Shown here in pieces: positions 5,982 through 55,335 of a stretch of DNA of 64,000 nucleotides; the stretch's first letter is position 1, and each line of letters starts with the position of its first letter. Position numbers and translations under genes: made by a program. The notes under the pieces were generated by a model. It was not told the DNA's origin and searched no databases. It saw only the letters and a list, made by a program, of their open reading frames with translations. This DNA comes from Arbacia lixula (taxonomy: Eukaryota > Echinodermata > Echinoidea > Arbacioida > Arbaciidae), in assembly GCA_963669155.1 (NCBI GenBank), contig OZ022581.1:25690197-25754196 (forward strand). The letters run 5' to 3'.

Positions 5982-8900
5982 GTGAATGTGCTGATACAGT
6001 ATCTTATACTTAGCAATTTCACAGTAACAGAATGTTATTACTGGTAGATGTCATTAAATTTGATCAACTTTAATAGATATTTAAGCAAAAAAAATTAGGG
6101 GGAATTTGTCAGGTGTTACAGGTAGATTAGATGAATTGAACGTGTTGTTTCAATATTTGGAATCTTTGGAGTACTTTTGAGTTAATTGAGTTTTAAGTTA
6201 AAGTTGAATTAAGAAGACGATCCCAAATAATGAGATATTTGCATTAATATCATCCTTATGACACTAGCTTACCTATGAGAGACCTTTTAACCCCCTAAAA
6301 TAAGCTTAGAATATTAAATTTAGACGATTTATCCCTCACCATATTTTCTCTGATCGCTCCGGCGATGAGTACTCGAGACTATTGTTCGAGCACTGTGACG
6401 TCACGGACGGGATTTGGGTCACAGTGAGAAAGTAAACAAAGCGAGCAGTGCAGTATATTGTGTGCATAGACATACACGCTAGTACAATTATGAATGAATT
6501 TACTTTCACGTCAGAACTTTTCTTCTATTGTTATGGTTTTATGTGAATGATTTTTGAAAATAAATGAGAATTAAGCAATGTCATATAGTCAATGATGTGT
6601 CTCTAGTGTTCCAATATTTCTCATTTGAAGCGATTTTACTGCCTTGTCTTTCGACTTCAACACCTCCTTCAGCTTCATCATCTTCCATAAAGTCTTCAAA
6701 GTCCATATAAAGGTCATTTTGCTCCAACTCTACACTAAATGGCTCCATTATTGGGTACTAATATTTTGTCAACAGCGAGATCGAGATCGAAAGAAAGCTA
6801 ATTATGCACAACGAAAGTCAAAGCTAAAGAAAGCCAACATGCACAAGTTTCTCGCGATCACGTCACAACATAAATATAGAGTACACGTGCGCTGGCTGCA
6901 AGCATGCACACACACACACACACGAGCGCCCATACGCATAGCATGCAGTATACTGGACAAGTTCAAGCAAGCAGCGCGCTCGAGTGTGTATGAGCTGGGT
7001 GGGGATGGCCGGATCTACTTTACGCTAGTATTCTCAAGTTGTAGAAAATAAGAAAATCAAGTGAAAATATTGACTAATAACTCATCGTTTGCAATCTTAC
7101 TTCACAATTTAAGACTTGAAAACCGTTATTTATACTTTTTTCTACATAGGGAGAGTAAAGATTTGTATATATGATTTGTAATTGTTTGATATGGCTTCCT
7201 TTGAAAAACATTGGTAAAATCTTCTCTCTCTTTCTGCACTGATTTTTGTATTGATACCAGACACTGGATATTACCCAAATCCCGTCCGTGACGTCACGCT
7301 CAGCGTGTACCTATGCGTCCAAGGCTTATCGGGGACTCTAAACAGGCTAATTTATATCGACTTTCAAACCAGAATATTGAGCATTCAAATGAGTTTTCTG
7401 ATATGCTCTCTGTTTGAACAGCCTATATGAACTATATAAAGTGTGTATAACCAAAATTTACGGGAATTCGCGCCCTTCTTAATTCAACTTTAATAGCGAT
7501 GGAGGAAATTCTCAAATACATTGTTCAATATTTAACATGTCTGTCTAAAATATTGCTGAAAAAAGTTGTAACTTTTAATTCATGCTGACTACCATGACAA
7601 CAGCAGCATTGCTCATCGCTCATTGGCTTTTTTCATGAAACATAATTTTAATTTACAATGATTGAAAAGCGATTCAACATGCCAATGACCTTTGAAACCC
7701 ATATTTTGTCCAGGTGTTTGTGCACAATCCACACACCAAGACTGCTCGGGGTGGGAGGGCCAATGAGCTGGCCCTCGACTCTGACATCAGCCTGCTCAGC
7801 ATCAATCAGAAGGTCAGTGCAGTGTGTGCAGGTTCTCTGGACTCCATGGGGGTCAATGACCTCCTGATGGTGGGCACTCAAACCAACCTGCTGGCCTACG
7901 ATGTGCAGAACAACACTGATGTCTTCTACAAGGACGTAAGTACACAAGCAAAACTCCTATGAAAAGCCCCTCTTGTTGCAGACATTTAAAAATTATTGAC
8001 ATTGCTGATCTGTGTACTAGACCTAAAATAAGTGCTTATTCATTCTGTAAAGTTGAACATTGTGATAGAGTCATGTTTCAGTTTGCTACAATTATAATCT
8101 TTGTGGCTATTATGGCAACACATCATTCTTAAAGACTTTCCCAAGAAAGTTGCAAATAGATCTAAATGTAATTCACAATCGTTAGAGTTATATTGCAAGA
8201 TTTGTACTAACGTCAGTCAGAACTTCTTTGCCATGATTTGATTGTAGCCCAGACTCGATCGTTGGTTCAGAGATGGTGTATTTGGAGAATAATTACTCAC
8301 TCAGGAATTTTCCAGTTGTCTATAAATACAGAATTTGATTTGAAGAAAATGTAACTGGCATATAACAATCTTCAATTCTGTTAATATTGTTTGTCTCAGG
8401 CTGCAGATGGAGTCAATGCTATCGTGATGGGCAAACTTGGGACAATTGCTTCACCCCTTGTCATCATTGGGGGCAACTGTGCCCTCTCTGGTTATGACAT
8501 TGAAGGGAACGATCTCTTTTGGACTGTGAGTACTACTTAACTATACAGTGAATACAGTACGGCTGTTTTTCTCTTAAATGCCAGTAGTCTTATGAAATGG
8601 TTGCTGAGGGTATGTTGCAATAAAAAAACACCTTGGAAAAGAGAACTTTGGGATATATTTTGAATATTTTGTTAGTTCATTTTCGTCTCACTTTGTTTGG
8701 AAGACAAATGAGAATCTATGCTATAAAGATCTTTTCATCTATCCACAGTTTAGATTTACACACTGTACTTTTTGCTCCCTTTCTTTGTTTTGTGTGATAG
8801 CACTGTATACTACATGTATCCCATGCACAGAAGTGATAAACAAAATAGTTTTGTATGGTATTCTAGTGACAAATAATATCTGAACTGATCATTTGTTTAA

Positions 8901-11900
8901 AAAAAAAATGCTCAAGATGTGGGCTACTTGATTTCCTGAAGAAAGATTTTCCAGAAAAAAAGGGGTAAAAAACAAATTTATCACTTTCTTGTTCTGCGAT
9001 ACGGTGATAGGTGACTGGTGACAACGTGTGCTCCTTAGCCTTGTGTGAATTCTCTGCGGACGGCCACCATCAACTCATCGTCGGCTCAGAGGACTACGAC
9101 ATTCGCGTCTTCCAGGAGGATGAGATCATTGCAGAGATGACAGAGACAGAGGTGAGTACGGTCACAGAGACTGGCGTGTGTCACCTATTTCACCTTAGAG
9201 TTAAATTGTAGAGGCAGTAATCTTGAAGATTAAGATTTGATTTTTTTCAGGTGAGGTCTCTGAATGTGTGCTTCAAGTATTTTAGTGAACTAAGAAGTTA
9301 TACTGCATATGATGACATTTGTAGGATTGTGTGTATTCATATTACAGTTTCATTTTTTTTAAAGTTTAGTTTGATTTATTTTGTCTTCATTGCTTCATCA
9401 TGCAGGCAATTACAGCTCTGTGCCCAATGACAGATGCCAGGTTTGGCTATGCCCTGGCCAATGGCACAGTGGGTGTGTACGAGAAGAATGCCAGATACTG
9501 GCGAATCAAGGTATGCAGATTACCGTTTGGGGGAGTTTTTAGCCAATTTTGGCAAAGTTCATTGATCTTTGACCTCTGACCTTTCAGGAATATTAACCAA
9601 AAATGTTACCAGTCTACCCCCAAGTAGTCATCCATCTGTGTACCATATCTAATGAGAATTGCATTCTTGGATTTGGATTTATTGTGAATAAGGTCAATTT
9701 TTTTGCAAATTTTCACAAAGTTCATTGACCTTTGACCACTGATCTTTCAGGAATTTTGCCAAAAATGTCACCAGTCTACCCCCACATAGTGATCTATCAT
9801 TGTACCATGTTTAATGAGAATTGCATGCTTGGATTTGGATTTAATGTGAAAAGGGTCAATTTGGGGCAATTTTTCTCAAAGTTCATTGACCTTTGACCTT
9901 TGACCTCATCAGATTTGACCCCAAATATACTCACTTCATTAGTTTCATGCAATAAATCTGGTTAACGGTTCTCAAGATATTGCCTAAACGGATTCAGGAC
10001 GGACAGACGTACAGACGGACAACCCGAAAATATAATGCCTCCGGCCACTTCGTGGCAGAGGCATAATGAGATGAAAATTATATATCTATGAAGTGTTTTC
10101 TGTAATCAAATCATGCACAAGTGATTTTATTGTCTTAACTCTGAATGCACCATGTGTGCATTTTATCACCATCAATGCCCACAAATCCCCTAGAGAATAA
10201 GATTGTGTGGCACACAAAGGCTGAACCAGCCTCCTATCTTAAGTTGATACCAAGCTGATATTTGTGTTTGCTGTCTTGCTCTGTACAGTCCAAGAACCAA
10301 GCAGTCACCATAGATAGCTTTGACCTGGATGGAGATGGTGTGCCTGAGCTTATCACAGGCTGGAGTAATGGCAAGGTGAGTGGATGGGAGTCCAGCCGTA
10401 TACATCACGTGCAGCCCTCCCGCAGGTCTAAACAATTGAATTATATAAATACCATGGGAAAGGGAAGGAAACGCTGTATAAGAACTCCACCAACAATATT
10501 GGAACTGTGCACCGACTTCAAGTGGAATTATATTGATCGCAAGATTTCAAGTAAATTTTGGGACATTAGCGGTTCCCGTAGCCTAGAGATACCACAACTT
10601 CTCTGCACCGAAGTGATGTGTTGAGCCGGGCTCTTACCGCTGATCGGTGCAATATGTTTTATAAATGTAGACCATGATTGCTAAGAAATGGCGGGTTCAA
10701 AGGTAATTAAGGATAGTTTTTCACTTTTGCTGAAAAGGTTTGTGAAGCACTGACTGAGATTTCATACATGTTATCATTAGGGTATAGTGCTGATCCGTGG
10801 CGAGTTTCACGACTTTGGTAAAAAGGCCACTCCACATTTAAAGGTAGTGTGTCCCTTCCCTACCCTTACCTTTCCCTAGATTGGAGAAGATTGAGCGTAA
10901 TAGGCTGGCAATAGAAAGGAAAGCCTGGCATTTCATGGTCGCCAACATCACAAGATATGGCATTTGAGAGAGCGATCCCTTTTTCAAACACAATAGTGAT
11001 GTGGCAGTGGGAAACTATATAGTAACATGAGTGATGCAGTGAATAACACAGTGCTAACCCTACACAGAATAGAGGTTACTCATACGGCCCAAACAATGAA
11101 TGTAAACAAGCTCATCACTTTCTGTAGAGATCGAATTTACAGGCTTGTGATTAAGATTTTTCAACACAAATAATTTTCTTAAAACGTGTTTGTTTGTTTT
11201 CAAAATTCTGCTAATTGTTTTTGCTTGTATTAAAGTCAACTTATTATGGGTGTTTAATTCCCTTTTAAAATGTTTATTGACATCGACTAATTGATGCAGA
11301 TTGATGCAAGAAGTGACAGGACAGGTGAGGTTGTCTTCAGGGACAATCTGTCGTCAGCCATTGCTGGAATCGTCCAGGGTGACTATCGCATGGACGGGAA
11401 CATGGAGCTCATCTGTTGCTCAAATGAAGGAGAAGGTATCGGAATACTTTCCTCTCTGTTTCTTCTCCTTTCTCATTCTCTTGATTAATTTATGCATGTA
11501 AAACTATTCATTCCACTGGCTTTCATCACCCATGACAAATTTCACCTCAACCATCTCGGTTTTTATATATAAAAATACTGAAAACAGATGAACAAAGAGA
11601 AATGAAATGTTTCAAATGTATGTATATTGTTAATGTATTTTCCAATGATACAGTAATATGTCATTTATTCTAAAGCATTTGATTCAGTGATTAAAGGAAA
11701 TCATCCTCAGTTAAGAATATATGTCTTTGACTGAAATTCAAGTAATGCTGATAAGTATGATAAATTTAAATATAAATCAAAGCAAGACTAAAACAAATAT
11801 TCTACCAAACACTCTATTTTGTAACATTTTCCAATGAAATTGTCAATATGTAAACATTTTGGCTAAGATAAAATCTTAAGATTAATGTGTTGAACAAATA

Positions 11901-14900
11901 AATTGAATGATTATTGTAAGGTTGAGTTGATATCAGTATGGTCATCTTCTTTTGAACTCTCCAAAACGGTACTCCAATTCCTCCTTGTTAAAAACTTTTA
12001 CCTTGTTATCCCTTTCTCTAAAATATACTCAGTGGTAAAATTCAGGAAACTTCAATCAATCAATCAATCAAGTCAGGTCGTACTTCGAAGATTTGTAGAT
12101 AAGTTTCCTCCAGCTGCCCTTGTCTTTCATTTTCCCAGCAATATCTTGTGTATTGTGGAGACCAGTGTCCATTCGTAACGAATCCACATATGTTCTTCTG
12201 GGTCTCCCACTTTTTGCATGTCCAAAAAGGGACTCCTGGAATACTGAATAAAGAGTAACAAACTACAGCTCAGGAAACTTTAAATTAAAAAGAAGATTGA
12301 TGTAGGGCCGCCATCCATATTTGCTTTGTCATGAATATTGACATTTCATGTTAAAGGTCAAAGGTCAAAGTTCATTGTGTCCAATTTCAAATCACGCTGG
12401 TAGTGTACCACATGGGATCACTAAATTGAGGTAACCTTATTACAAGTTAGGTGAAATCTCTTAGGACCAAAGGTTAAAGATTAATGAACATTGTCCAAAA
12501 TGGCCGAAAATTAACATCTTCCAAATTTTTGTGCAATAAGTAGGAATTGAATGGTCCCATTCACAAAAGCATACCAGAGCATAGAACAATTATAAATCAA
12601 AACTAAATGAAGATAACAAAGAGGCATATTTCTTGACTGTATGGCAGAATGTGTTAACTGAATGTGCACTATTCCATTGTTACCCTATCTATGTCACGGG
12701 TTCACACATTCCTATTTGTTTACAAAAAAGTTGTAATTTCACAGGAATTAGGCACTTCAGGCAGCAGTGTGTAGGTCAGATTGTTACTTTCATAGTTGGG
12801 TGTTTACTGAATCATCCTATGACATTCCAACTTGTTTACAAAATTATTGTAAGTTGCAACAGGAAGTTAATACAATACCTTGTTGATTTCACCTTGGCAT
12901 GTCCAAGTGCATGTTCATTTCATCCTGTTTGAAATGTACTATCATTTTTGTTTCTCTGGCACCAGTGACATGTTGTAGAAAGAATTTATATCTTGTCAGA
13001 ACTGTTGTGAAGGTTATATGAACTGTATTCAGTAATTATGTACTGCATTTTCTTGTTCAATAACTAATTTCCTTATAGGAATCATGGGTACAAGAGTGTT
13101 TTTAAACTTCACTCATACATTTAGATTAGATATTGAGTATTGAATTTTGATAAAGCCTTTTGATAATGTTAATAACTTTGCTTGATTGTAGATTGGCAAA
13201 ATATGCCTCTGTCACAAAGTGGCCAGTGGCAGTATGCATCAGGTTGTTTGCCTGTCTGTCCCCCTGTATGTCCGGATCGCGTTTATGCTATAACTCAAGA
13301 TATAATTGACTAAATTTCATCAACTTGAGTAAAATGATAATGTGTGATGGGTCAATTACATGATTAGATTTTGGGTCAGAAAAATCAGAGGTCATAGGTC
13401 AAGGTCAACTCCCGAAATATTGCTTTCTTGATTGTTCAAGAAATATTTAACAAACTTTCACTTGATACAATGATGATTCGTGAGAGCAATTTCTCAAGTG
13501 AGTTGTGTGCCTTAGGCAAATATCAAGATTAATAGTCAAATAGCAACTTTCCAAAGCATTGGACAAGGAAATGTTAATATGGAATATGGCAATCCCAATG
13601 TTTGCACAGTAGAACGCGTATCAGTCAACTGCACAGTCAAATTTGAGCAATTATGGGACAATTTTGTGCTTTCAAAAATTGATCAAGGTCTCTATCAAAA
13701 CAAAATGATATTTTAGAAAAAAATCTACTTTAGTTTTTCCTCATAATATCTTGTATGTTTTCTTAAAAACAATATTATTGTGTGGATTCATCATTGTGTT
13801 CATAATCTTTGCAGGTAATGTTGTGGATCAACCAAATTAAAAAGAAGATTGATGTATCATTGAAATCTTTGAGATGTCCCTTTGTTTCGTCCTGATTCGC
13901 AGTACGAGGCTACCTCCCAGCCAATCAGGAGCAGAAAGGCAACCTCATGGACACCAACATTGAGCAGGAGACCATCAGGGATCTCAGCCAACGCAAGCAG
14001 AACCTCATCCTTGAACTCAAGAACTATGAAGAGAATGCCAAGGTAAGTCTTGATCGTGATGATGCTAGAAACTACACATTATGTTGACACAGAAGCAGTG
14101 CACTGCAGCCTTTTGCTGGCTGCTGCTTGTTACCAGTGTTTAAACTAAAGTTGTAACAACACCATGGTGTAGAGCAGGGCCGTCACCAGCTTTTTTCTAG
14201 GGGGGGGGGGGCTTTTTTTTCATGAAAAAAAAACAACACAAAAACACAAAAAACAACGTATGAACTCAATGTTCATTCAGTTATATAGCCCGCCGGCCAG
14301 AATGGATATAGAAAGTACCATGGGCGGAAATCGCTCCCTGAAGGTGGAGGGGACATGTTTCTCCTCAAGAAGTAGCTGAGCGGGGATGGGGGGGGGGGGG
14401 GGGGGTAGTTAGGGGATTTTGGGGAGGTGGGTTTTTTTCCTTCGTTTTTTTTAGCCCGCCCATGCTCTCATGCTCTCATGCAGTGGGAGGGGGGGGGGGG
14501 GGATTTTGGGGAGGTGGGTTTTTTTCACTCGCCCAGTCTAACCGAAAATTGTGGGGGGGACATTTGATATTGTGTTCCCCCTTCAAAATGGTGGGGGGGG
14601 GGGGGGGGGGTTATGAAGTTTCTTTCGGTACTCGACCGAAAATAGTAGGGGGGACATTTGTAGAGAACACATGGAATTCATCTAACAAACTATTATTACA
14701 ATAAATCATGTTTTAGCAACCATCTGTATTGAAAGACCACCAATCTCTAAAGAATGCATTTGTTGTTTAGATTAATTAATTTCATCTTTGAAACCTGTAT
14801 AGATATAACCTGCACTTTAAGACCACCAGTTCCAGAAGACCTCATTTATTGTCCCTTGATCAGTTTTTCTATACAATTTCACTGTATAATTTGATTTGAC

Positions 14901-16690: not shown

Positions 16691-19600
16691 CCTTTTTACA
16701 TGTTTCTTTATTTTCTCTCTATTTGATAATCAATCTTTCTTATTATTTACGTGTCCAACTTGCCCAATGTATGCATATATAAATTTATGAAAATAATTTT
16801 ACATAAAATCGTACAATATGACAACGTACCAAATAAGTTCGGTTACCAGTGTATACTAGTATCGTATGTACATAAATTTAAGTGTTTGATTTCTTGTTCT
16901 AATTGATATGTGTGAATGTAAAATATGTTATCATACTGCATTTTTTTTTTTTGCAGACATCCGAGTACTGCTAACCTAGCTAACACCCTGAAAGTGCCTA
17001 TAGTCCCTCCTAAAGATGTCCCGGTAGACCTTCACATCAAGGCCTTTGTTGGGACAAAGTCAGGGTAAGGACATGTATGCTACACATTGGGACAATGTCT
17101 GTCTGAGTGTGCAGTGGTTGCTGCTGAGATGAATGGCATGGCAGACCAGAGATTTCCTACTTTTAATGTAGTCACTCATTCTTTTATTCATCACTTCAGT
17201 ACATGTACACTGTGGATGAAGAGTATAAGACCTATTTTTTGCATACTTCATACCTCATGAATATTTTATGGGTTTTGCTTCTTGAGAGTTTAGGCCCATG
17301 CTGTATACACAGCTCTACAGTTATGATAATACAACAGTTATTAGTACCATATGAACAGGCAATAACATCTGAGCATTAGAGCTGTTACTACAGTACTTCA
17401 TGGTCAAATGGTAGACCTATACTACAATTCTTTTACAAAATTGCGCAAGTTACTTATAAATGAGCAAACCATGTCTTTTATTTGTGTTTGTATCAATTCA
17501 GTATCCCATTATTCTAAAGTGAATATGCTTTTACTGCCATTTTTTGACAAATGTAAGCAATTGCATAAAGTGATTTTATTTTTGTATATGGGCAGCATGT
17601 CTGTCCTTTGTGATAACACCACTGCAGTATCTATAAACATGAAGAGGTCAAAATTGAATAATTGTCAGTTTACGCAACATGGTCCAAAGGACTCCCAACC
17701 ATTGTCTTGATCTGTGGGTTGTATTCCTTTTTTGATATGCCTTTTTTTTTTACAGCGCTCAGTTCCACGTGTTTGAGGTGACCCGCCAGCTGCCTCGCTT
17801 CTCAATGTACGTCCCCTGCACCAACCAAGTCCCTGAACCCAAGAGCAGCGTGGTATTCACTGTGAATGAGAGGATACAAAGGGTGAGCACCCGGATATTA
17901 TTTGTTTTAGAGAGATTATCAATCGTTGTAACTTTCATAGCAACAGCTACATGGTTCAACCATTGCTATGTCCATGGAAGTTTTCAGGAGGTGTAATTTA
18001 CAGTATTTGGACAGCTCTACATGCAACTCGTGCCTCAATCTTGAATCATTGAAATGAGCTGCAAATTTCCCTCATATTACCTCGCTGTGGAGAGCATTAA
18101 GGAGCTAGTTGAAATGTGTTCATCCCTCCATCCATATTTGCTTTGTCATGAATATTGACATTTTATGTTAAATGTCAAAGGTCAAAGTTCATTGTGTCCA
18201 ATTTCAAATCATGCTGGTAGTGTACCACATGGGATCACTAAATTGAGGTAACCTTATTACAAGTTCGGTGAAATCTCTTAGGACCAAAGGTTAAAGATTA
18301 ATGAACATTGTCCAAAATGGCCGAAAATTAACATCTTCCAAATTTTTGTGCAATAAGTAGGAATTGAATGGTCCCATTCACAAAAGCATACCAGAGCATA
18401 GAACAATTATAAATCAAAACTAAATGAAGATAACAAAGAGGCATATTTATTGACTGTATGGCAGAATGTGTTGACTGAATGTGCACTCTTCCATTTTTAC
18501 CCTATGTATGTCACAGGTTCACACATTCCTACTTGTTTACAAAAAAGTTGTACATTTCACAGGAACTAGGGCACTTCAGGCAGCAGTGTGTAGGCAGGGA
18601 TGTGTTAGGAAGGAGGGACAACTCAACCATAATATATTCAAACATCTGTATGGATACTAAAGCGTGCTAATGAATGTCAAAAGCATTCCACAATCACTGC
18701 AATGCTTTGAAGTCCCATGCGCGGCACCGTCATTTTGCTATCGTCAACTTGGAAAGCAGTATCTTTAATTGCCTGTTTTGTTTCTCGAAGCTGTGTTTCT
18801 TATCACATTTTTTTGCAATTTTCAAGAAAGTTAAGGGGCAACACCTCTAAAGATCCTGTATTCGTTTTTCTTCTAAATAATTGTTGAATGATGCACAAAC
18901 GGAGATATAAGATAATATTCTTACTTACATAATTAACAAATTTCTTCACTTTCCGGAGATTTCCGGAAATGTCGGATTCAATCATTATCAAAATCATATA
19001 TTAAGCTGCTTACTTTCATTAACAGAGTTTGCGTGAATTTGCGTGCAAATGAGATATTTTACTTTAAAAAACTGTTAATTTTTGTTCGCTGATATCTCTT
19101 TTCCTCACAAAAGTATTGATGCAATCCAACAGAAGTGGACAAGCGAAATAAGACTCTACATTTCTTTTGTTCTCTCTGAGAAACCGTTGCTAGGCAATCG
19201 TGTTCGTTATTGTTAAAACACGTGAAAAGCACATGCTGAGACCACGCAATTTTTCGGCGGTGCCACGCATGGGCTCAAAGAAAGAATGTTGTTTCATATC
19301 CTTTCCTAACACATCCCTGGTGTAGGTCAGGTCGTTAGTTTCATAGTTGGATGTTTGCTGAATCATCCTATGACATTCCAACTTGTTTACAAAATTATTG
19401 TAAGTTGCAACAGGAAGTTAATACAATACCTTGTTGATTTCACCTTGGCATGTCCAAGTGCCTGTTCATTTCATCGTGTTTGAAATGTACTATCATTTTT
19501 GTTTCTCTGGCACCAGTGACATGTTGTAGAAAGAATTTATTTCTTGTCAGAACTGTTGTGAAGGTTATATGAACATGTATTCAGGAATTGTGTACTGCAT

Positions 19601-22600
19601 TTTCTTGTTCAATAACTAATTTCCTTATAGGAAGCATGTGTACTAGAGTCTTTTGAAACTTCACTCGTACATTTAGATTAGATATTGAGTAGTGAATTTT
19701 GATAAAGCCTTTTGATAATGTTAATAACATTGCTTGATTGTAGATTGACAAAATATGCCTCCGTCACAAAGTAGCCAGTGGCAGTATGCATCAGGTTGTT
19801 TGTCTGTCTGTCCCCCTGTATGTCCGGATCGCGTTTATGCTATAACTCAAGATATAATTGACTGAATTTCATCAACTTGAGTACAATGAGAATGTGTGAT
19901 GGGACAATTACATGATTAGATTTTGGGTCAGAAAAATCAGAGGTCACAGGTAAATGTCAACTTTTGAAATATCACTGCTTTATTGTTCAAGAAATATTCA
20001 ACAAGCTCCCACTTGATCCAATGATGATTTATTACAGCAATTTCTCAAATTAGTTGTGTGTCTTAGGCAAATATCAAGATTAAAAGTCAAATAGCAACTT
20101 TTCAAGGCATTGGGCAAGGAAATGTATGGAATATGGCAATCCCTCAATGTCTACATAGTAGAACGAAGGCCTGTCAGTCAACTGCACACAGTCAGATATT
20201 AGCAATTATGGGACACTTTTGTGCCTTTGAAATTGATCAAGGTCTCTATCAAAACAAAAATATTTAAGAAACAAATCTACATTAGGTTTTCCTCATATCT
20301 TGTACTTGTATGTCTACTTGAAAACAATATCATAGTGTGGATTCATCGCTGTGATCATAATCTTTGCAGGTAATGTTGTGGATCAACCAAAACTTCTTGC
20401 TCGATGAGGATCTTCCCGCAGAAACCCCACTCAATATCGGTTTCCTGTCTCTCAGAGGGTCTGGTCCCATCTTCATTCAAATGCAGAGCAGTGGACAGGT
20501 AAAAACCTCCCAGAATTGATGTTCATAATGTACATGTTTCTGTGAATTCCTATGATAAACAGTTCATGAAAATATCAGTCTTGCAACATTCACACTGGAT
20601 AAAGATGGATGCAGTCCTGTTCTTGTTTTAAATCACAAAAATATGTCTGTTATAACGCAAAGTATCTAATCTTGTTGTACTTAAACTCTGACAAGAATGC
20701 ATACCTGTGTCAAGATATCATCACAGAACAAGATTATTACTCATTATTATTGTTGTTGATTGGCTCAGGTAACGCTGCGCACTGACGACATGGACCTTGC
20801 TGGTGATGTGATCCAGGCACTGGCTGCCTTCCTGGGCATCGATGACCTCCAGGTCGTGGCCGACTACCCCATGCACATGGAGGACCTCAAGAATCTTCTG
20901 GTCAAGGTCAACATTGATTACATTTTCATTCTTTATCACTAAATTTTTTGTTTGGCCCCACACCTGTGGTACCACCAGCAAATTAATTCCCAAATCTCTG
21001 GGTAAAGAATTGGGGGTCCAGAACTCTAAATGATCTCTTTTAAGATTTCCCCTCATGGTTCAAAATGCAAATTAAAAAATGTTTGTCGGCAAACCACAAA
21101 ACAACAATCAAAACTAATCTATACATTATGTAAATATGGTAAGTGGAAATGGTAGATCTGGCTCATCTGCAAAATTGTTTCAATAAGCATTTTGTTGATA
21201 CCATGATACCTTGTTCAGTTACAATGTCTTGATTTGGCGTTCAAATGATGTCATTATAACATTTAATCTGAGCAAAGGTAAAAGAATAATAGTTTTAAAA
21301 AATCAACAATTGTCTCCTCACAACAACATATGGATTTTGGAGTACTGAACATTTCTGTATTATAAATGTGATCATTTTTTCAATCATCAATAATGCTTTG
21401 ACTTGTATGTGCTTGATAATGCTAGGTGGATGAATTCCATACTGTGAGGCAGAAGCTGACAGCTGAGATGGCAGACCACTCCAACCTGATCAGAAGCCTG
21501 GTTGTCAGGGCGGAAGATGCCCGCCTCATGTCCGACATGTAAGTATGACAAGGAGCAGGCAATGACGATTTATTCTTCTCTTTTTCTTTTTTTATTCTTT
21601 AACAGATTGATCAATTAATCTTGTTACTATGGAGAGTAACAGCAAAACAAACATCATATCATGTATTGTTTCTCTGCAAAACATTCATGTTTTTTCATAA
21701 ATCATGATGGACTGTGAAATCATCTCTCTCTTTCTTGCTCTATTGATTCAGGAGAAACATGCGGCGGGGTTACATGGAGCTCTTTGACCTGAACAGAGAC
21801 CTGGTCAACGGCTACAAGATCCGCTGCTCCAACCACCAGGAGCTACTCAACTGCCTCAAGCTGGTCAACCAGACCATCCAAAAGGCCGGACAACTCAGAG
21901 GTAGGTCAAGGGTCAAAGCTCAGAGGTTGTCAGGATTTGGGGGGTGTGCTTAAAACCCACCGCAGACCACACAATACGATCATATTGCTCTCTGACTGGC
22001 TAACTCGCAGGACCCCTTCATAGTTTGGAACAAGAAGGTGACTTCACATTTCCAGTTGTAGACCCTAACAACTGCAGCTTTGGGGCAAAATTGTGCCGTT
22101 TGGAATGGCCTTTTGGGTGATCTCTCTAAAATGAATTTGCAAAGCTTCATGCTGAACCTAAATTATAACTTTCCAGAATGTCTTCTCAGGTAGTGTTTTT
22201 TTTTTTTTTTTTTTTTTTTTGGGGGGGGGAATGACATTACTCAAAGAGTGATGTAGGTCAAAGGTTAAGAGGCTCGTTGTACATTGATAAGTTGCAAAGC
22301 TTCATGCTGATCCCAAATGTTATAATCTTGACCCATACTTCTTTTCTATTGAAGCTACCATGGAAACATGAAATATGTAGGCATTGCAGTTGTTGCCAAA
22401 TTATTGTTTTCTCATTTGTAACTTTTGATAAATTGTTTTTGATGTGACTCGATAACATAGTTTGGATGTCATTTATAATAGTACCCATTTATAACATTTA
22501 TACAATTGTTGTATTTTGTGGGACAATTATTGTCATGGCCATAGAAGTGCAGACACATACAGTTCATAATGCTGTCGGCATGCTGCCAATATAAAATGTA

Positions 22601-22861
22601 ATATTGTAAAATGATAATTGAATGTGCTGTTGATTCTAGGATAAATTTCTGCTTGTTCCCTTTGCATCACTTTTGTTTTCAACATCCTTGTTGACATTCA
22701 TATGTTATTTCTTCTTTGAAACCAATTTCCTTTCCTTGGCTGTTTTGTTCTTCCATCCAGTGGGTAAATTCAAGACGGTGGTGATCTCCTCCTGTAGGCA
22801 AGCCATCAAGGACAACAACATCAGCGCGTTATTCAAGATCATCAAGACTGGCACGTCATGA
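5865..22861 (+). CDS. BBS2: BBS2, BBSome subunit (17 coding exons, complete)
   Basis: Joining 17 exons in phase gives a 719-residue protein with no internal stop, against 721 in human BBS2. It starts [18 protein letters not shown] and ends [10 protein letters not shown]. Conserved BBS2 stretches include [60 protein letters not shown]-free coiled region [86 protein letters not shown] and YMEL.DLNRDL.NGYKIRC. In BBS2 the N-terminal half is a beta-propeller (about 1-320). It is followed by a coiled coil (about 330-358), a GAE domain, a platform domain and a C-terminal helical region. With BBS1, 4, 5, 7, 8, 9 and 18 it forms the BBSome, which moves membrane proteins in and out of cilia. The start has A at -3. 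All introns are GT-AG. Confidence 0.97.
6198..7493. mobile_element. Long-TIR element in BBS2 intron 1
   Basis: The ends share a perfect inverted repeat of 18 bp, TAAAGTTGAATTAAGAAG (6199-6216 and 7475-7492), with TTAA at both outer junctions. Exactly 193 bp inside each end lies a perfect 25-bp inverted repeat containing GTGACGTCACGGACGGG (6391-6415 and 7276-7300). The equal spacing shows one element with about 220-bp diverged TIRs rather than two nested ones. The interior has no recognised transposase, so it is non-autonomous. TTAA junctions would suit a piggyBac-like insertion, but the terminal bases are not a clear piggyBac match. Confidence 0.75.
7714..7935 (+). CDS. BBS2: BBS2 coding exon 2 (residues 40-113)
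   Basis: The acceptor TTTTGTCCAG is followed by [14 protein letters not shown]. The exon ends in VFYKD before donor GTAAGT. It contains the BBS2 signatures SLLSINQKV and [15 protein letters not shown], and both ends are phase 0. Confidence 0.96.
8400..8525 (+). CDS. BBS2: BBS2 coding exon 3 (residues 114-155)
   Basis: The exon encodes [26 protein letters not shown] and NDLFWT. The acceptor is TTTGTCTCAG and the donor GTGAGT; both ends are phase 0. Confidence 0.96.
9011..9151 (+). CDS. BBS2: BBS2 coding exon 4 (residues 156-202)
   Basis: The exon encodes [14 protein letters not shown] and the propeller segment [20 protein letters not shown], ending TETE. The acceptor GGTGATAG has a weak pyrimidine tract. 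The donor is GTGAGT. Confidence 0.95.
9406..9510 (+). CDS. BBS2: BBS2 coding exon 5 (residues 203-237)
   Basis: The exon encodes [24 protein letters not shown] and RYWRIK, closely matching vertebrate BBS2. The donor is GTATGC and the exon is in phase 0. Confidence 0.96.
9553..9906. repeat. 162-bp tandem repeat in BBS2 intron 5
   Basis: The unit beginning CAAAGTTCATTGA.CTTTGACC recurs at 9553, 9716 and 9877 (spacings of 163 and 161 bp). This gives two full copies and the start of a third. Each unit shares ACCAGTCTACCCCCA and GAGAATTGCAT.CTTGGATTTGG. The third copy ends in three TGACCT hexamers spaced by one T (9887-9906). Confidence 0.8.
9996..10070. repeat. Interspersed-repeat end with hairpin
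   Basis: CGGACAGACGTACAGACGGACAACCCGAAAAT leads into an imperfect hairpin. The stem ATGCCTC..GCCAC (10035-10048) pairs with GTGGC.GAGGCAT (10052-10064) across a TTC loop. A diverged relative of this stem occurs at 13205-13231 and at 19753-19779 beside CTGTCTGTCC.CCTG. It is probably the terminus of a short interspersed element family. Confidence 0.6.
10289..10375 (+). CDS. BBS2: BBS2 coding exon 6 (residues 238-266)
   Basis: The exon encodes [29 protein letters not shown] in segments that match the BBS2 propeller (human [26 protein letters not shown]). The acceptor is CTCTGTACAG and the donor GTGAGT. Confidence 0.96.
11300..11435 (+). CDS. BBS2: BBS2 coding exon 7 (residues 267-311, 312 split)
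   Basis: The exon encodes [29 protein letters not shown] and LICCS.EGE. It ends with the first base of codon 312 before donor GTATCG. The acceptor is TTGATGCAG. Confidence 0.96.
12042..12280 (-). mobile_element. LINE 3'-end fragment with 11-bp target duplication
   Basis: On the minus strand the sequence translates to [17 protein letters not shown] then [16 protein letters not shown] and a stop. This is the typical C-terminus of a non-LTR retrotransposon endonuclease/reverse-transcriptase ORF. The 3' end is a (TTGA)n run (plus-strand TCAATCAATCAATCAATCA), as in several LINE clades. An 11-bp direct repeat, TCAGGAAACTT, flanks it (12042-12052 and 12270-12280), so the 5'-truncated insert is 12053-12269. 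The clade is not assigned. Confidence 0.8.
12282..13856 (+). repeat. Duplicated intron-12/exon-13 segment inserted in intron 7
   Basis: 12311-13836 is a near-identical copy of 18128-20391 (minus a later insertion there). It includes the exon-13 splice acceptor and the first 20-odd bases of exon 13. A perfect 23-bp direct repeat (AAATTAAAAAG...GATGTA) borders it at 12282-12304 and 13834-13856. The last three A of the copied segment overlap the repeat. The exon fragment shows that intron 12 is the donor and intron 7 the recipient. The left edge lies 1 bp past the LINE target duplication. Confidence 0.88.
13903..14042 (+). CDS. BBS2: BBS2 coding exon 8 (residues 313-358)
   Basis: The exon completes codon 312 and encodes [16 protein letters not shown], then the coiled-coil segment [18 protein letters not shown] ending NYEENAK. 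The acceptor is CCTGATTCGCAG and the donor GTAAGT. Confidence 0.96.
14195..14660 (+). repeat. Poly-G-rich interspersed block in BBS2 intron 8
   Basis: Five or more G-runs of 8-18 bases occur near 14200, 14390, 14490, 14560 and 14592. Repeated phrases such as GATTTTGGGGAGGTGGGTTTTTTT (14415 and 14503) and GGGGGGACATTTG (14555 and 14649) show internal duplication. The block resembles C-rich DNA at 38.2-38.8 kb in style. On the plus (transcribed-sense) strand it could form G-quadruplexes. Confidence 0.7.
15310..15398 (+). mobile_element. Probable LINE 3' tail with (ATTCA)n
   Basis: GAATTTCCATGAATGGACAATAAA precedes four ATTCA units (15377-15398). An AATAAA-like signal followed by a short tandem repeat is typical of a non-LTR retrotransposon 3' end. 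It stops about 20 bp before the exon-9 acceptor, so it supplies most of that intron's branch-site region. A similar (ATTCA)n run follows a T-run and G-run at 15733-15796. Confidence 0.5.
15421..15543 (+). CDS. BBS2: BBS2 coding exon 9 (residues 359-399)
   Basis: The exon encodes a variable linker ([18 protein letters not shown]) and then the conserved [15 protein letters not shown]. It ends SEKSS before donor GTGAGC. The acceptor is CGTCTGTGCAG. Confidence 0.94.
15733..15796 (+). repeat. T-run, G-run and (ATTCA)n junction
   Basis: About 27 T are followed directly by G7 and then ATTCAATCC(AATTC)n. This looks like a second retroposon tail in intron 9. Confidence 0.5.
16260..16357 (+). CDS. BBS2: BBS2 coding exon 10 (residues 400-431, 432 split)
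   Basis: The exon encodes [20 protein letters not shown] and [12 protein letters not shown], plus two bases of Ile432. The donor is GTAAGC. This is the start of the GAE-like region. Confidence 0.96.
16656..16685 (+). repeat. (CT)n microsatellite in intron 10
   Basis: A pure CT run of about 15 units lies inside a wider pyrimidine-rich tract (16500-16730). Confidence 0.9.
16957..17064 (+). CDS. BBS2: BBS2 coding exon 11 (residues 433-467, 468 split)
   Basis: The exon encodes [20 protein letters not shown] and [16 protein letters not shown] 12-T tract precedes the acceptor GCAG and the donor is GTAAGG. Confidence 0.96.
17756..17882 (+). CDS. BBS2: BBS2 coding exon 12 (residues 469-510)
   Basis: The exon encodes [20 protein letters not shown] then [15 protein letters not shown]-rich tract precedes TACAG and the donor is GTGAGC. 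Confidence 0.96.
18128..20391 (+). repeat. Source copy of the duplicated segment (intron 12 to exon 13)
   Basis: This is the parent of the segment at 12311-13836. Shared landmarks are CCATCCATATTTGCTTTG at the left edge, the CAGGCAGCAGTGTGTAGG site, GTATGTCCGGATCGCG, and the TCTTTGCAG acceptor at the right. The two copies differ by scattered substitutions and by one 725-bp insertion plus its 7-bp site duplication here. After removing these, lengths agree closely (1526 against 1532 bp). Confidence 0.88.
18595..19319. mobile_element. hAT-like non-autonomous element, 725 bp
   Basis: The TIRs are a perfect 16 bp, CAGGGATGTGTTAGGA, at 18595-18610 and its reverse complement at 19304-19319. A 7-bp direct repeat, GTGTAGG, flanks it (18588-18594 and 19320-19326). 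The paralogous segment at 12.77 kb preserves the empty site with one GTGTAGG. Both arms also share a subterminal CCCATGCG.GGCACCG motif. CAGGG termini suggest hAT, where 8 bp is usual, so one base may have been lost. No transposase is encoded. Confidence 0.85.
20370..20498 (+). CDS. BBS2: BBS2 coding exon 13 (residues 511-553)
   Basis: The exon encodes [29 protein letters not shown] and QMQSSGQ (human VVWLGQNFLLPED). The acceptor is TCTTTGCAG and the donor GTAAAA. Its first bases also occur in intron 7. Confidence 0.95.
20769..20906 (+). CDS. BBS2: BBS2 coding exon 14 (residues 554-599)
   Basis: The exon encodes [20 protein letters not shown] and [14 protein letters not shown], ending LKNLLVK. 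The donor GTCAAC is weak but the phase and the human match (LVK then VDEYH) fix it. Confidence 0.94.
21426..21538 (+). CDS. BBS2: BBS2 coding exon 15 (residues 600-636, 637 split)
   Basis: The exon encodes [20 protein letters not shown] and [17 protein letters not shown], with codon 637 split AT/G. The donor is GTAAGT. Confidence 0.96.
21752..21900 (+). CDS. BBS2: BBS2 coding exon 16 (residues 638-686, 687 split)
   Basis: The exon encodes [32 protein letters not shown] and [12 protein letters not shown], one of the most conserved BBS2 regions. The acceptor is ATTGATTCAG and the donor GTAGGT. Confidence 0.96.
22195..22228 (+). repeat. T-run followed by G-run in intron 16
   Basis: About 24 T run directly into G9, the same T-to-G arrangement as at 15733 in intron 9. 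Confidence 0.7.
22761..22861 (+). CDS. BBS2: BBS2 coding exon 17 (residues 688-719 and stop)
   Basis: The exon encodes [19 protein letters not shown] and [13 protein letters not shown], then TGA at 22859-22861. The acceptor is CTTCCATCCAG. The last 25 bases resemble the unit of the minisatellite that follows. Confidence 0.95.
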
Positions 22862-23690
22862 TCCAGTCTCAGTCACACAAGCATTCAGAGAACTTTCACT
22901 GGTGAAGATGTCAGATCATCACGACTCATGTTGTGATCCAGTCTCAGTCACACAAGTATTTAGAGAACTTTCACTGGTGATGAAGATGTCAGATCATCAA
23001 GACTGTGATGTTGTGATCCAGTCTCAGTCACACAAGCATTCAGAAAACTTTCACTGGTGATGAAGATGTCAGATCATCAAGACTCATGTTGTGAACCAGT
23101 CTCAGTAACACAAGCATTTAGAGAACTTTCACTCGTGATTAAGATGTCAGATCATCAAGACTCATGTTGTGATCCAGTCTCAATCACACAAGCATTTAGA
23201 GAACTTTCACTGGTGATGAAGATGTCAGATCATCAAGACTCATGTTGTGATCCAGTCTCAGTCACACAAGCATTCAGAAAACTTTCACTGGTGATGAAGA
23301 TGTCAGATCATCAAGACTCATGTTGTGAACCAGTCTCAGTAACACAAGCATTTAGAGAACTTTCACTCGTGATTAAGATGTCAGATCATCAAGACTCATG
23401 TTGTGATCCAGTCTCAATCACACACGCATTTAGAGAACTTTCACTGGTGATGAAGATGTCAGATCATCAAGACTGTCATGTTGTGATCCAGTCTCAGTCA
23501 CACAAGCATTTAGAAAACTTTCACTGGTGGTGAAGATGTCAGATCATCAGGACTGTCATGTCGTGATCCAGTCTCAGTCACACAAGCATTTAGAGAACTT
23601 TCACTGGTGATGAAGATGGCAGATCATCAAGACTGTCATGCTGTGATCCAGTCTCAATCACACAAGCATTTAGAGAGCTTTCACTGGTGG
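22837..23690 (+). repeat. 78-bp minisatellite starting at the BBS2 stop codon
   Basis: Eleven units can be counted by CTTTCACT at 22893, 22968, 23048, 23126, 23204, 23282, 23360, 23438, 23518, 23598 and 23678. The spacing is 75-80 bp and exactly 78 for six consecutive intervals. Variants at positions such as GAACC/GATCC and TCAGT/TCAAT recur every third unit, giving a 234-bp higher-order period. The first unit includes the last BBS2 codons (GATCATCAAGACT). Because 78 is a multiple of three, a 158-codon frame with a 26-residue repeat (MSDHQDSCC...FRELSLV) stays open at 23057-23533. It lies in the presumed 3' UTR. Confidence 0.92.
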
Positions 23691-30200: not shown

Positions 30201-33200
30201 AAGGGGCAAACCATCTAGCAGGTGGATTTAGTGGTCTACATTGACCTGTGTAATATATTCACTTCAAATATATAAGATTTACCGCTCCACAGGGTTTAGA
30301 AATAATCTTGATTTTTGACAAAATCAGTTTAATTTTAATAATATTTAACCCACAGATCTAGTGGCATGTAAATGTTCACGTAATTAGGATTCAATCATTA
30401 AATATGGGGAAATACATCACTAATCACTACAAGGTGGTTCGCGAACCACGAGTCTCACCTGATTTCGCAATCGCTAAACAGTGCTAAGTTGTTTTTTTCA
30501 ATTATTTAAAATGGTGCCGAGAATTACTAGGTCTCTGCCGAACTTTGTTCAGGCGAGAAAAAAAGTAGAAATAACCTGCAATTTAATATATTTCAAAGAT
30601 ACCACTCAATACCGAGGAGGGATTCTTTTCCACAAAACTTAAATCTAAATCACTCTTTTTTACAATATGATTTAAATCATGCCAACCCTACCTCTGCAAT
30701 ATTCAGTACACATAGCTGCTATTCACCTTTAACCAGAAGTGGTTTCTGACCCATTCGTCCGATAGTTCTGCACAAACACAATACTGGTAACAGGATTATA
30801 TTTTCCTAAAGTACTGTACTCCAAGCTTGTGCACTATGTATCATGGAAGATTAATATTCATTATGAGCAGTTAGACTGGATCACTAGCTTTGACATGCAT
30901 TTTACTATCATTTCTTGAATGTTTTGCTCACTTTTCATTCATGAGGACATCAGTCAGCACACAAATGGGAGAGCCATTCTGGGCCAGCGACTGGTGAACC
31001 TGTCTACCCTCCTGCCTGGGTGTCTCCATCCTACCATCCCCTGCTAACAACATTGGGCTGTGGGTTTGATCACCAGTCTCCTTGTTCCCTGATGCAGTAT
31101 TAGCAGTACAGGCAACTGGGGTTGCATTTGATGGAGTTCTACTTGCACTGACAAGTCGTGTGCCATGAGCACTTGGTGTATGTGTACTTGAAGGTGGCCC
31201 GAATGATGCTGGGGTTGCTGTAGCATTCCCTTGACCTTTGACCCCAGTGGTTGACCCATGGACAGGTAGAGGTGTGGTGAACGGTACGACGGACGCAGTC
31301 TCAGCGGGCCGAGCCAGGGGGCTCATTCGGCTTGGCTCAGGGCGTGGGTAACGAGCTTTGACGATGTTGCTATCAATATCAGATCTCTTCATGGCAACAA
31401 CACTTGGCGTTGTTTCTTGCTAAAAACAAAAGAAATCATCAAAATGAAATCATTGTCTTTGTAGAATGCTCCTGACCAACAAATTTTATTGAAATATAAT
31501 ATATAACTTTCTCATTTTTTTAAATCGTTCATTCATTAATTGTTGTAACCTCTACATTGCAGTATCAACAACAAAAATCTTTCGCCCAAGCATGGACTAA
31601 AAAAAAACACATATTCTTAACTTCCAAGTAATGAACAAATTATTGAATAATTAACTTACCATTTTTGGTGCTTTTCCAATCACCCTCAAATATGCCTTGT
31701 CATTGAGACAGTTTCCCAGGCAATTGCCGAAGCTCCTGTAGATACATTGATAAGAACAGATAAACATTTAATGAGGTGGCTACATCATACCAGGAGGAGG
31801 GGGGGGATTAAAGTTAATATGCAGGGGGCTTCTTTTTAATCCTGGGGTCATGAAACAAGCATCTTGGACCATGTTTACCCTATGTGGAGAAAAAAAAATA
31901 TATTTTTCTTTTTATGCGGGCTCTTTTATACAGGGGCTGTACTTTGCTTTTCAAAGGCTACATTGCCCTGGGCCAACGTGTAATCTACTTTTAATGCCAC
32001 ATACATGACTACATAGTTTGTTTTACTGTCATATAATAAAACACTACCAAGGCAAGCAATAATGTTTTTATAATTGTATGTAAAATTGAGTTGGGAAGGA
32101 CTCAACAAAATTATTAAAATTTTGTAGCACTTTGCTATTGTCTTCCTGTGGTAAGATTCAAAGAGAGATGAGTGGAGGATAGGAGCTAATTAATGGAATA
32201 TTGTGAATTATAAGCGAGTTAAGTGAAACACTCACTTGAGAGCTCTCTTGAGTCCATCCGTGACAGCTTCCTTGCGAGCTTTCTCCAATGCTAATGCTTT
32301 TGACTTCATTCCCTCACAAACTCCATACCCAATATCCTCATGGTAAACACCATCCTGAAATGAACATATAGAAGCATACTTATTTATATAACATATTATT
32401 ACATAATACTGATAAATTTTGGCAGAAGCATACACAAATCACAAATATGAGGTAAAAGAAAAGAAAATTCCACTGCAGAATAGACTGCAATTAAAAAAAA
32501 AATCATACACTTACATAAATGATGTGCATTTCATTGAAACGAGAAAGTTTCCACCAGTAAAAGAAGGTGCGAATTAAGGGAACTAATTAGTATTGTTCAA
32601 GTGCGAACAAAATTACATACATTTGGTAATCAACAAATGGATTACCCATGCACTCACTAGCAGGGGCTCTCCTACAAGATTTCATCAAGAAATTTCTTAG
32701 AAGAATATGGCAATACCTTGAGTTCTACTCTGATAATGGCACTGACTCCCACAAAGAACCTTCCTCCAATCTGGTCCACAAAATCTGGAGAGAAAGAAAA
32801 AATCAATACGAATAAACTTGAACTTTCATGTTAGCATTTTTAGTTTTGTTATCAAGAGAGAGCAGCTACATGGATTAGGGTACTAAATAACTTCATAACA
32901 TTTGTACTCACCTATTGTCTGGTTAGTTATTGAGTGGGACCAGCCATTAAATCCAAATGTCTCATTGGCTAGGTTGATCAGACGCCAGCCCTCAATGTAG
33001 GCAAGCTGTGCGAAAAAAAAGAAGAAAATATTAAAGCAAACTTTTTCACAATAAAGTAATACCAGTGTCATCAAAGAAGCATTTCAATTATAACAAGCAG
33101 AATATAATAATGGGTTTTACTCTGCATTAACTGAACATCATTATCTAGATATGAATTTCCATTTCTGACTTTTTCCCCTTATTTTTTTAATCACCTTCCA

Positions 33201-36639: not shown

Positions 36640-37272
36640 TGTAGTGTAACTACAGTGTAACCTACCTCTAATGTGTAACCTGGGCCTGGCTCTACAGTGT
36701 AACCTGGCTCTAAAGTGTAACTTGGCTCTAAAGTGTAACCTGTCTATTGTGGCATTATAGTGGAAACTGGCTCTAAAGTGTAACCTGGCTCTAAAGTGTA
36801 ACTTGGCTCTAAAGTGTAACCTGTCTATTGTTGCATTATAGTGGAAGCTGGCTCTAAAGTGTAACCTGGCTCTAAAGTGTAACTTGGCTCTAAAGTGTAA
36901 CCTGTCTATTGTGGCATTATAGTGGAAACTGGCTCTAAAGTGTAACCTGGCTCTAAAGTGTAACTTGGCTCTAAAGTGTAACCTGTCTATTGTTGCATTA
37001 TAGTGGAAGCTGGCTCTAAAGTGTAACCTGGCTCTAAAGTGTAACCTGGCTCTAAAGTGTAACCTGTCTATTGTGGCATTATAGTGGAAACTGGCTCTAA
37101 AGTGTAACCTGGCTCTAAAGTGTAACTTGGCTCTAAAGTGTAACCTGTCTATTGTTGCATTATAGTGGAAGCTGGCTCTAAAGTGTAACCTGGCTCTAAA
37201 GTGTAACCTGGCTCTAAAGTGTAACCTGTCTATTGTTGCATTATAGTGGAAGCTGGCTCTAAAGTGTAACCT
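36640..37272 (+). repeat. Hierarchical satellite based on an 18-bp unit
   Basis: The base unit CTGGCTCTAAAGTGTAAC (18 bp) occurs in threes, followed by a 27-bp variant containing CTGTCTATTGT.GCATTATAGTGGAA. This makes an 81-82-bp block seen seven times (starts near 36739, 36821, 36902, 36984, 37063, 37145 and 37227). Blocks mostly alternate between GTGGC...AAAC and GTTGC...AAGC versions, giving a dimer of about 163 bp. The last two are both of the second type. The array ends in a G-run that is the left edge of the next element. Confidence 0.93.
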
Positions 37273-37578
37273 GGGGGGGGGGGGGGGTATTCCGAAAACG
37301 AACTTAGGAAAAATTTTATTGTATCTCAGGGACTTAGGAAAATTTTTATCTTTCGGTATTCCGAAAAGCCAACTTACAATAAAAGATAAAATTTTTATTC
37401 AAATGAGCTAGAGATAAAATTTTTATGTAAATGAGCCTCCGAGATAAAAAAAAAATTATGCAAATGAGCTGAATCGGTATTCTGAAACGCACTTAGGAAA
37501 AAAAAGTTAGAATAAAAGATAAAACTGCTCCCAAGCAATTTTATCTCCAGACGTACGCGCCTAGGCCCATAGCATTAA
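37273..37578 (+). mobile_element. Left-half copy of the 35.2-kb TIR element
   Basis: The sequence is near identical to 35214-35512, from TATTCCGAAAACGAACTTAG to CGCCTAGGCCCATAGCATTA, then stops abruptly. The right half and right TIR are missing. The satellite abuts its left terminus. Confidence 0.88.
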
Positions 37579-54392: not shown

Positions 54393-54768
54393 CCTCTCCA
54401 ACTCATCTCCCTCTCTCGCCCCCCGCTCCTCTCTTGCCGCCCTCTCTATCTCTCCCTCTTTCTGCTACGCATGTCAAGTGGAATGGGAAGCGAGTAATGC
54501 GCATTGTGCGAAGAGAGATGGCGTACTTGCCTTCTACGCTGCTTCCGTTTATCATTAATTTGTGTTGAAGTTCTGGACTTTTGTGCAACGTCACTCATCC
54601 CTGACAATATGAATTTTGTATTTATCATTTTATCCCATCAAGGTTTGAATAGACGGTTTCAAATGCTGATCACAAAGGGAACATCATTAGTTGAATATTT
54701 TGTTTTATCCTTGGCTTTGTAAAGGCACGAGGGTCATACGGTACAGTGGGTAAGAGCAGCTACCTTTT

Positions 54769-55335
54769 AAAGGGTTACTAAATTAGAAAAATAAGTTCCC
54801 TCCAATCTATGTAAAATTATCCACTAAACACGAATTTCACATTCGTTTGTCGCAATAAAGCCTCATTTTGACGAAAATTTGAAGAAAAAAAAAACCGCAC
54901 GCCTCCAGTGACGTATGAGAAGTCAAAATTCCATAGATTGTACGGAAGTCAACAATAGACCATTTTCGTAAGGTATTCACAACTTTCCTCCTAACTGCAT
55001 AGTAACGCGTTATTGCATTCACCTGTATCTTGTCATTCAGATTCAATGGATGGAATGCACTTTAAATCTCTTAGTTGTTGCTACTCAGACAAACCTCGGA
55101 CAAGCTTTGGGGCTCCCATTGGTAACGTATTGGTTGAATTCCGTGAATGAAACATTTTATTTACACCGTTGGCATTTACGGCATTTTGACTTCTCATACG
55201 TCACAGGAGGCGTACGTTTTTTCAAATTTTCTTCAAAATGAGACTTTATTGCGGCAAACGAATGTGCAATTCGTTTTTCGTGGATAATTGTACATAGATT
55301 AGTGGGAACTTATTTTTCTAATTTAGTAACCCTTT
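54769..55335. mobile_element. Foldback MITE, 567 bp, with 8-bp target duplication
   Basis: The terminus AAAGGGTTACTAAATTAG is exactly complemented at the right end. The inverted arms continue for about 165 bp each, with shared phrases TTTGTCGCAATAAAG.CTCATTTTGA and GACGTATGAGAAGTCAAAAT. The flanks are TACCTTTT (54761-54768) and AACCTTTT (55336-55343), a 7-of-8 match, fitting a hAT-like 8-bp duplication. No coding capacity is seen. Confidence 0.85.

Follow-up and report, generated by a model that had tools for sequence, protein, structure and literature searches.

Tailless retropseudogenes were reportedly first described by Schmitz et al. in 2004. In the sections of Noll et al. (2015; PMC5322556) that deal with their structure, such copies carry no tail, end in 3′ at an A-rich stretch within the source RNA and are flanked by a target duplication; they occupy a TT/A-rich site, and the target is complementary to the 3′ border of the RNA. 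They were ascribed there to internal A-rich priming, with TT/WAAAAWW as the target consensus; a target duplication of 8–35 nt served as the filter for tailless copies, and the stagger was 8–30 nt. The set consists of nearly 5′-complete copies of various RNAs, chiefly from mammals, and 5′-truncated copies are stated in the same sections to be under-represented. Among the vertebrates checked, tailless forms are given there for mammals and the green anole only; platypus and chicken had none. Eight U2-derived tailless cases are given for maize.

Templated insertions fall into two classes in the passages of Onozawa and Aplan (PMC5110952) that concern us here. Class 1 insertions, which are of LINE type, may have intronic templates; they show a duplicated target of 5 bp or more, a T-rich nick site, an added poly(A) of 10–40 nt and a polyadenylation signal. 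Human class 2 insertions, which were ascribed to break repair, have no tail and no target duplication, and filler bases and short overlaps are stated for insertions of this repair type. Short direct repeats also surround inserted sequence in Daphnia, where 43% of the gained introns were flanked by them and staggered breaks were held responsible (in the part of the review PMC3443670 on this genus). Finally, target duplications have been reported for intron-containing host genes that Penelope elements had moved, and the events covered in the corresponding part of PMC3846280 retained the introns, were framed by Penelope terminal repeats and had duplications of 8–10 bp or none.

The locus described here lies in BBS2 of Arbacia lixula, within a window of 64,000 nucleotides (the whole stretch of DNA that was analysed). 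The end of intron 12, its acceptor and the start of exon 13 are present again in intron 7 of the same gene, between two copies of a 23-bp target sequence (Table 1). This is a real templated intragenic insertion and the order of events is clear. It is closest to the tailless retrocopies, with which it shares the missing tail, the 3′ end at an A-rich stretch within the source RNA and the target duplication, and perhaps also the TT/A-rich site and the complementarity between the target and the RNA border; unlike the tailless set, it would derive from unspliced pre-mRNA, is 5′ truncated and lies inside its own gene. It resembles class 1 insertions in its intronic template, target duplication and putative T-rich nick site, but has neither the added poly(A) nor the polyadenylation signal; it resembles class 2 insertions in its missing tail, filler bases and short overlap, but has a duplication of 23 bp. 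The insert falls wholly within neither class. It shares the short direct repeats with the staggered-break insertions of Daphnia, unlike which its donor is known and lies in the same gene, and the insert entered an existing intron. Retained introns and a target duplication are common to the insert and to Penelope-mediated dispersal, whereas the framing terminal repeats were not found around it. The insert is ordinary in kind, and it is one example.

Table 1. Features of the BBS2 insert, its source and the neighbouring exons (positions in the window)
Feature	Positions	Strand	Basis or remark
BBS2 exon 7	11300..11435	+	Frame runs on into exon 8; no Pfam match of its own
Left copy of the 23-bp target duplication	12282..12304	+	Exact match to 13834-13856
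GGG at the left junction, without counterpart	12305..12307	+	Alignments; BLAST match from 12308
Copied segment: end of intron 12, acceptor and 19 nt of exon 13, in sense	12308..13833	+	Alignment, BLAST
More divergent tract of the copy	13395..13799	+	Mismatch counts, change point
Copied acceptor TCTTTGCAG	13806..13814	+	Copied exon start at 13815
Right copy of the 23-bp target duplication; first AAA also in exon 13	13834..13856	+	Exact match
BBS2 exon 8, followed by GTAAGT	13903..14042	+	No Pfam match of its own
Source of the copy, intron 12/exon 13; 20389-20391 is the AAA common to the target	18125..20391	+	Alignment
725-bp element with 17-bp inverted ends CAGGGATGTGTTAGGAA	18595..19319	+	7-bp duplication GTGTAGG at 18588-18594 and 19320-19326
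Exon 13 start present in the copy	20370..20391	+	Frame VMLWINQNF; Pfam BBS2_pf from residue 1; 37-bp terminal identity

Exons were identified by scanning 11 frames against Pfam, with cut-offs as given by Pfam. BBS2 domains were above cut-off in 7 of the 11 (exons 1, 2, 4, 5, 6, 10, and 13): BBS2_N in exon 1 (27.6 bits, cut-off 26.3) and exon 2 (89.2 bits), BBS2_Mid in exons 4, 5, and 6 (45.8, 46.8, and 31.4 bits), BBS2_GAE in exon 10 (48.3 bits) and the platform domain BBS2_pf in exon 13 (35.4 bits, cut-off 27), where the match began at the first residue. Exon 12 had matches below cut-off only (BBS2_GAE, 20.3 bits; BBS2_pf, 18.6 bits), and the frames of exons 7, 8, and 9 had no Pfam match. Exons 3 (8397-8525) and 11 (16955-17065) were outside the Pfam scan and were recognised by eye in three-frame translations. 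With the scanned and the by-eye exons counted together, the numbering agreed with that of the first-pass annotation, which had named intron 7 as the recipient and intron 12 as the source. Pfam also gave matches elsewhere in the window: a RAD52 homologue on the minus strand (two frames, 32232-33083; Rad52_Rad22, 49.4 and 39 bits) and part of a protein kinase domain on the plus strand (736-1206; Pkinase, 41.8 bits).

The two 23-mers were identical (23/23), were separated by 1,529 bp and had no third occurrence on either strand of the 64-kb window. The insert (12308-13836) aligned with the end of BBS2 intron 12, the acceptor and the exon 13 start, 6 kb away and in the same orientation; BLAST gave 96.8% identity over 470 columns and 90.8% over 1,080 columns. 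Thus, the recurrence of part of intron 12 with its acceptor and 20-odd exon bases, as well as the exact direct repeat around it, both of which had been proposed from a first reading of the letters, were confirmed. The exon 13 portion of the copy was 19 nt long, or 22 nt if the three A's common to the target are included. These three bases, the first of the right 23-mer, form an AAA overlap between target and source, and GGG at the opposite junction was matched by neither. The last 37 bases of the copy (13800-13836), acceptor included, were identical to the source.

The direction of copying proposed earlier, from intron 12/exon 13 to intron 7, was supported. Since the platform-domain match of exon 13 starts at residue 1, the beginning of this exon belongs to the gene itself, and it is intron 7 that contains the copy. 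The order of events was given by the 725-bp element in intron 12, owing to which the copied source now spans 2,264 bp. The intron 7 copy has a single GTGTAGG and no such element, and because it retains this empty site, copying preceded the insertion of the element. That these 725 bp had been spliced out of the copy was ruled out by their 17-bp inverted ends and the 7-bp duplication. No relatives of the element were found elsewhere in the window, and two of its reading frames had no Pfam match.

The first-pass annotation had suggested an alignment of the insert with its source as a measure of divergence; with GGG left out (12308-13836), 84 of 1,516 aligned bases differed (5.5%). When the alignment was begun three bases earlier, there were 87 mismatches in 1,519 bases and 15 gap events, one of which was an artefact of an extra source base. 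Mismatches were unevenly distributed, with 39 in the 1,087 bases left of 13395 and 45 in the 429 bases from 13395 to 13836 (Fisher P 6e-7), and a change point as strong as that at 13395 was reached by none of 1,000 permutations. The tract up to 13799 was approximately three times as divergent as the left part and was followed by the identical 37-bp end. As guesses at the cause of this unevenness, we suggest that the left 1.1 kb underwent gene conversion or that another allele of the source was copied. At a divergence of 5.5%, 23-bp target repeats had a chance of 0.27 of remaining identical; at 10.5%, this chance was 0.08. Changes toward A+T in the copy were not significantly in excess (26 vs. 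17, P 0.22), and the excess of A-to-G changes expected from RNA editing was not observed (7 A-to-G changes and 14 G-to-A changes).

Ordinary retrotransposition of spliced mRNA, which the earlier reading had discounted, was ruled out by the kept intron and the missing tail: the copy holds unspliced intron together with an exon start, no run of at least 6 A's occurred in the last 100 bases of the insert, and neither AATAAA nor ATTAAA occurred in it. Two candidate mechanisms had been put forward with that exclusion, templated repair of a staggered break and mobilisation of unspliced RNA by a LINE; the direction and the exclusion stood, and both candidates survive, at similar probability.

We tentatively read the insert as a tailless retrocopy of unspliced sense BBS2 pre-mRNA made by LINE-like machinery. 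A LINE-type endonuclease would have opened a nick (AATTT/AAAG) in the bottom strand of intron 7, and the freed TTT-3′ end would have paired with the AAAA run (CCAAAA) that starts 20 nt into exon 13 in the unspliced sense transcript. A reverse transcriptase would then have copied approximately 1.5 kb backwards, beyond the acceptor, and come to a stop within intron 12; a second-strand cut 23 nt away would have produced the 23-bp duplication, and GGG would have been added at the last junction. The sequence itself shows the duplication, the copied segment with its sense, the missing tail, the AAA overlap and the order of copying relative to the 725-bp element; we infer an RNA intermediate and a LINE, with the RNA either still attached at its own gene or not.

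The L1 endonuclease prefers TT/AAAA. The left edge of the target repeat, TT/AAAT, matched this motif at 5 of 6 positions, on the appropriate strand, whereas the other end of the target matched at 2 of 6; both the motif and the AAA overlap lie at the end where copying of a sense RNA would place them. Sites with 5 of 6 or better made up 1.1% of window positions and 2.2% of the 865 positions of intron 7. Of 400,000 random pairs, 0.03% had both the motif and the AAA overlap, which is a post hoc figure. Among equally A+T-rich positions, 3.4% had a 5-of-6 site, and among equally A-rich positions 5.6% did; 19% of the A-rich positions began with AAA. The chance figures flatter the LINE reading because the features were sought after the site had been seen and both stem from A-richness; with A-richness allowed for, the nick site and the overlap fit this reading weakly. 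Compared with the tailless consensus, the target matched at 7 of 9 positions, as did 2.4% of window positions, and overlapped the RNA end by 3 bp. The 3′ end of the insert lies 19–22 nt into exon 13, inside the source RNA; the sense orientation fits an RNA origin, but the copy had no feature specific to RNA, neither a spliced junction nor an editing excess. The 23-bp duplication lies inside both size ranges given for tailless copies in the sections of PMC5322556 cited above and is longer than the usual peak of 14–16 bp for full-length human L1 (figures given in part of PMC2912911). Extra 5′ bases, as with GGG here, are listed in the same part of PMC2912911 for 14.6% of 5′-truncated L1, 11.7% of 5′-truncated Alu, 12.4% of full-length Alu and 3.9% of 5′-inverted L1 insertions. 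None of the 21 reading frames scanned against Pfam in the window encoded a LINE protein. This result, the length of the duplication relative to the L1 peak, the narrow distribution of tailless forms among the vertebrates checked and the lack of an A-to-G excess count against the LINE reading.

The product of an unattached RNA should land anywhere, so it also counts against the LINE reading that only 6 kb separate the copy from its source, within a single gene; the short distance is partly selected, since reading a single window reveals nearby sources only. Proximity within one gene is better explained, and the common orientation also fits, if intron 12/exon 13 served as the DNA template for repair after a fork had stalled or a staggered break had arisen in intron 7, a course of events that we regard as nearly as likely. 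The template would then have been the same or the sister chromosome, the return would have occurred 23 bp upstream of the departure, guided by AAA, and the 23-bp repeat would be a filled-in overhang or re-copied template. End joining and template switching usually leave filler and a short overlap, and the insert has GGG at one junction and AAA at the other (an overlap of at least 3 bp has a 5.9% chance). In the animal data presented in part of Tan et al. (PMC8277862), gap-filling and other Pack-TIR copies showed a cis bias, and overlaps were present at one or both breakpoints in 190 of them (67.6%). The Daphnia repeats agree with a staggered break, but the human class 2 insertions, as covered in the cited passages of PMC5110952, lack target duplications, and the endonuclease-like site at the sense-RNA end would have to be a coincidence, if a modest one (3–6%). 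Reverse transcription in place, in which a LINE-type or other reverse transcriptase at the nick used the still attached nascent BBS2 transcript, appears rather unlikely, and most of the probability we give it falls within the LINE-type reading. Such an attached template would jointly account for the unspliced state of the copy, its sense orientation, its untailed end and the 6-kb proximity.

Three further explanations were considered. A transposon or repeat family, with exon 13 bordering an old copy in intron 12, is a very unlikely origin of the segment. Relatives (65–71% identical) of two inner pieces (12405-12527 and 13202-13378) were present in intron 4 at 9537-10065, reverse strand, and intron 12 thus contains old repeat material; but no relative in the 64-kb window reached either border of the insert (E up to 0.01), the insert ends, GGGCCGCC and, reversed, TTTGGTTG, formed no terminal inverted repeats (40 bases each), and the window had no tRNA (ARAGORN, bacterial code) or Rfam match (gathering threshold). 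A source element that started at 18125 and had a transcript running into exon 13 was also considered and rejected, there being no repeat of at least 10 bp between 18085-18135 and 18136-20520. Movement of the segment by a Penelope-like element is highly improbable: intron-containing genes do move in this way, with target duplications, but the terminal repeats and short or absent duplications of those events, as described in the cited part of PMC3846280, have no parallel here. Apart from the 23-mer, the 300-bp flanks shared no exact words longer than 8 bases, direct or inverted, and no framing pair of repeats of at least 60 bp was found around the insert. An assembly artefact from misjoined haplotypes is scarcely credible; a single assembly was used, and nothing further speaks for it, whereas the 5.5% divergence, the gap events and the element present in one copy only indicate two real loci, and the exact 23-bp bracket is unlike the pattern of a misjoin.

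Other repeats were also present in the window, and two pairs were inspected as possible recent insertions that might reveal a common target site. A direct pair (35222-35506 and 37289-37577) was 94% identical over 289 columns, each member being preceded by a G run, and an inverted pair of about 170 bp (54767-54938 and 55174-55337) was 87% identical; for neither pair did the 60-bp flanks contain a target duplication of 7 bp or more. Long tandem arrays at 22836-23689 and 36686-37274 had units of 78 bp and 81 bp, and open frames (174 and 280 aa) overlapped them.

The copied exon start (13815) places the copied acceptor 88 nt upstream of that of exon 8 (13903). Its pyrimidine content over 20 bases was 0.65, compared with 0.50–0.75 in ten other listed acceptors, a list in which exons 4, 10, and 12 are placed one base off AG and from which exons 3 and 11 are absent. 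When exon 7 was joined to the copied acceptor in translation, eight codons (GNVVDQPN) were followed by TAA inside the target repeat, whereas the frame stayed open when exon 7 was joined to exon 8. Judged from the translation, the copied acceptor, if used, would break the frame with a stop after eight codons.

The locus shows known kinds of event in a clean form but stands alone. Direct repeats around a sequence of known origin record its manner of arrival, and this locus is unusually legible because the exon fragment fixes the direction of copying and the later element fixes the order. If copying in place is true, the introns of genes in such genomes should be enriched in untailed sense copies from the same gene that are flanked by LINE-like target duplications. 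The insert is a good test case of whether genes in animals other than the mammals and the lizard covered in the cited sections of PMC5322556 regain sequence from unspliced, untailed RNA, or whether break repair leaves an identical trace. In either case, an intron is seen to have acquired a ready-made second acceptor shortly before the next exon, which would be frame-breaking if used.
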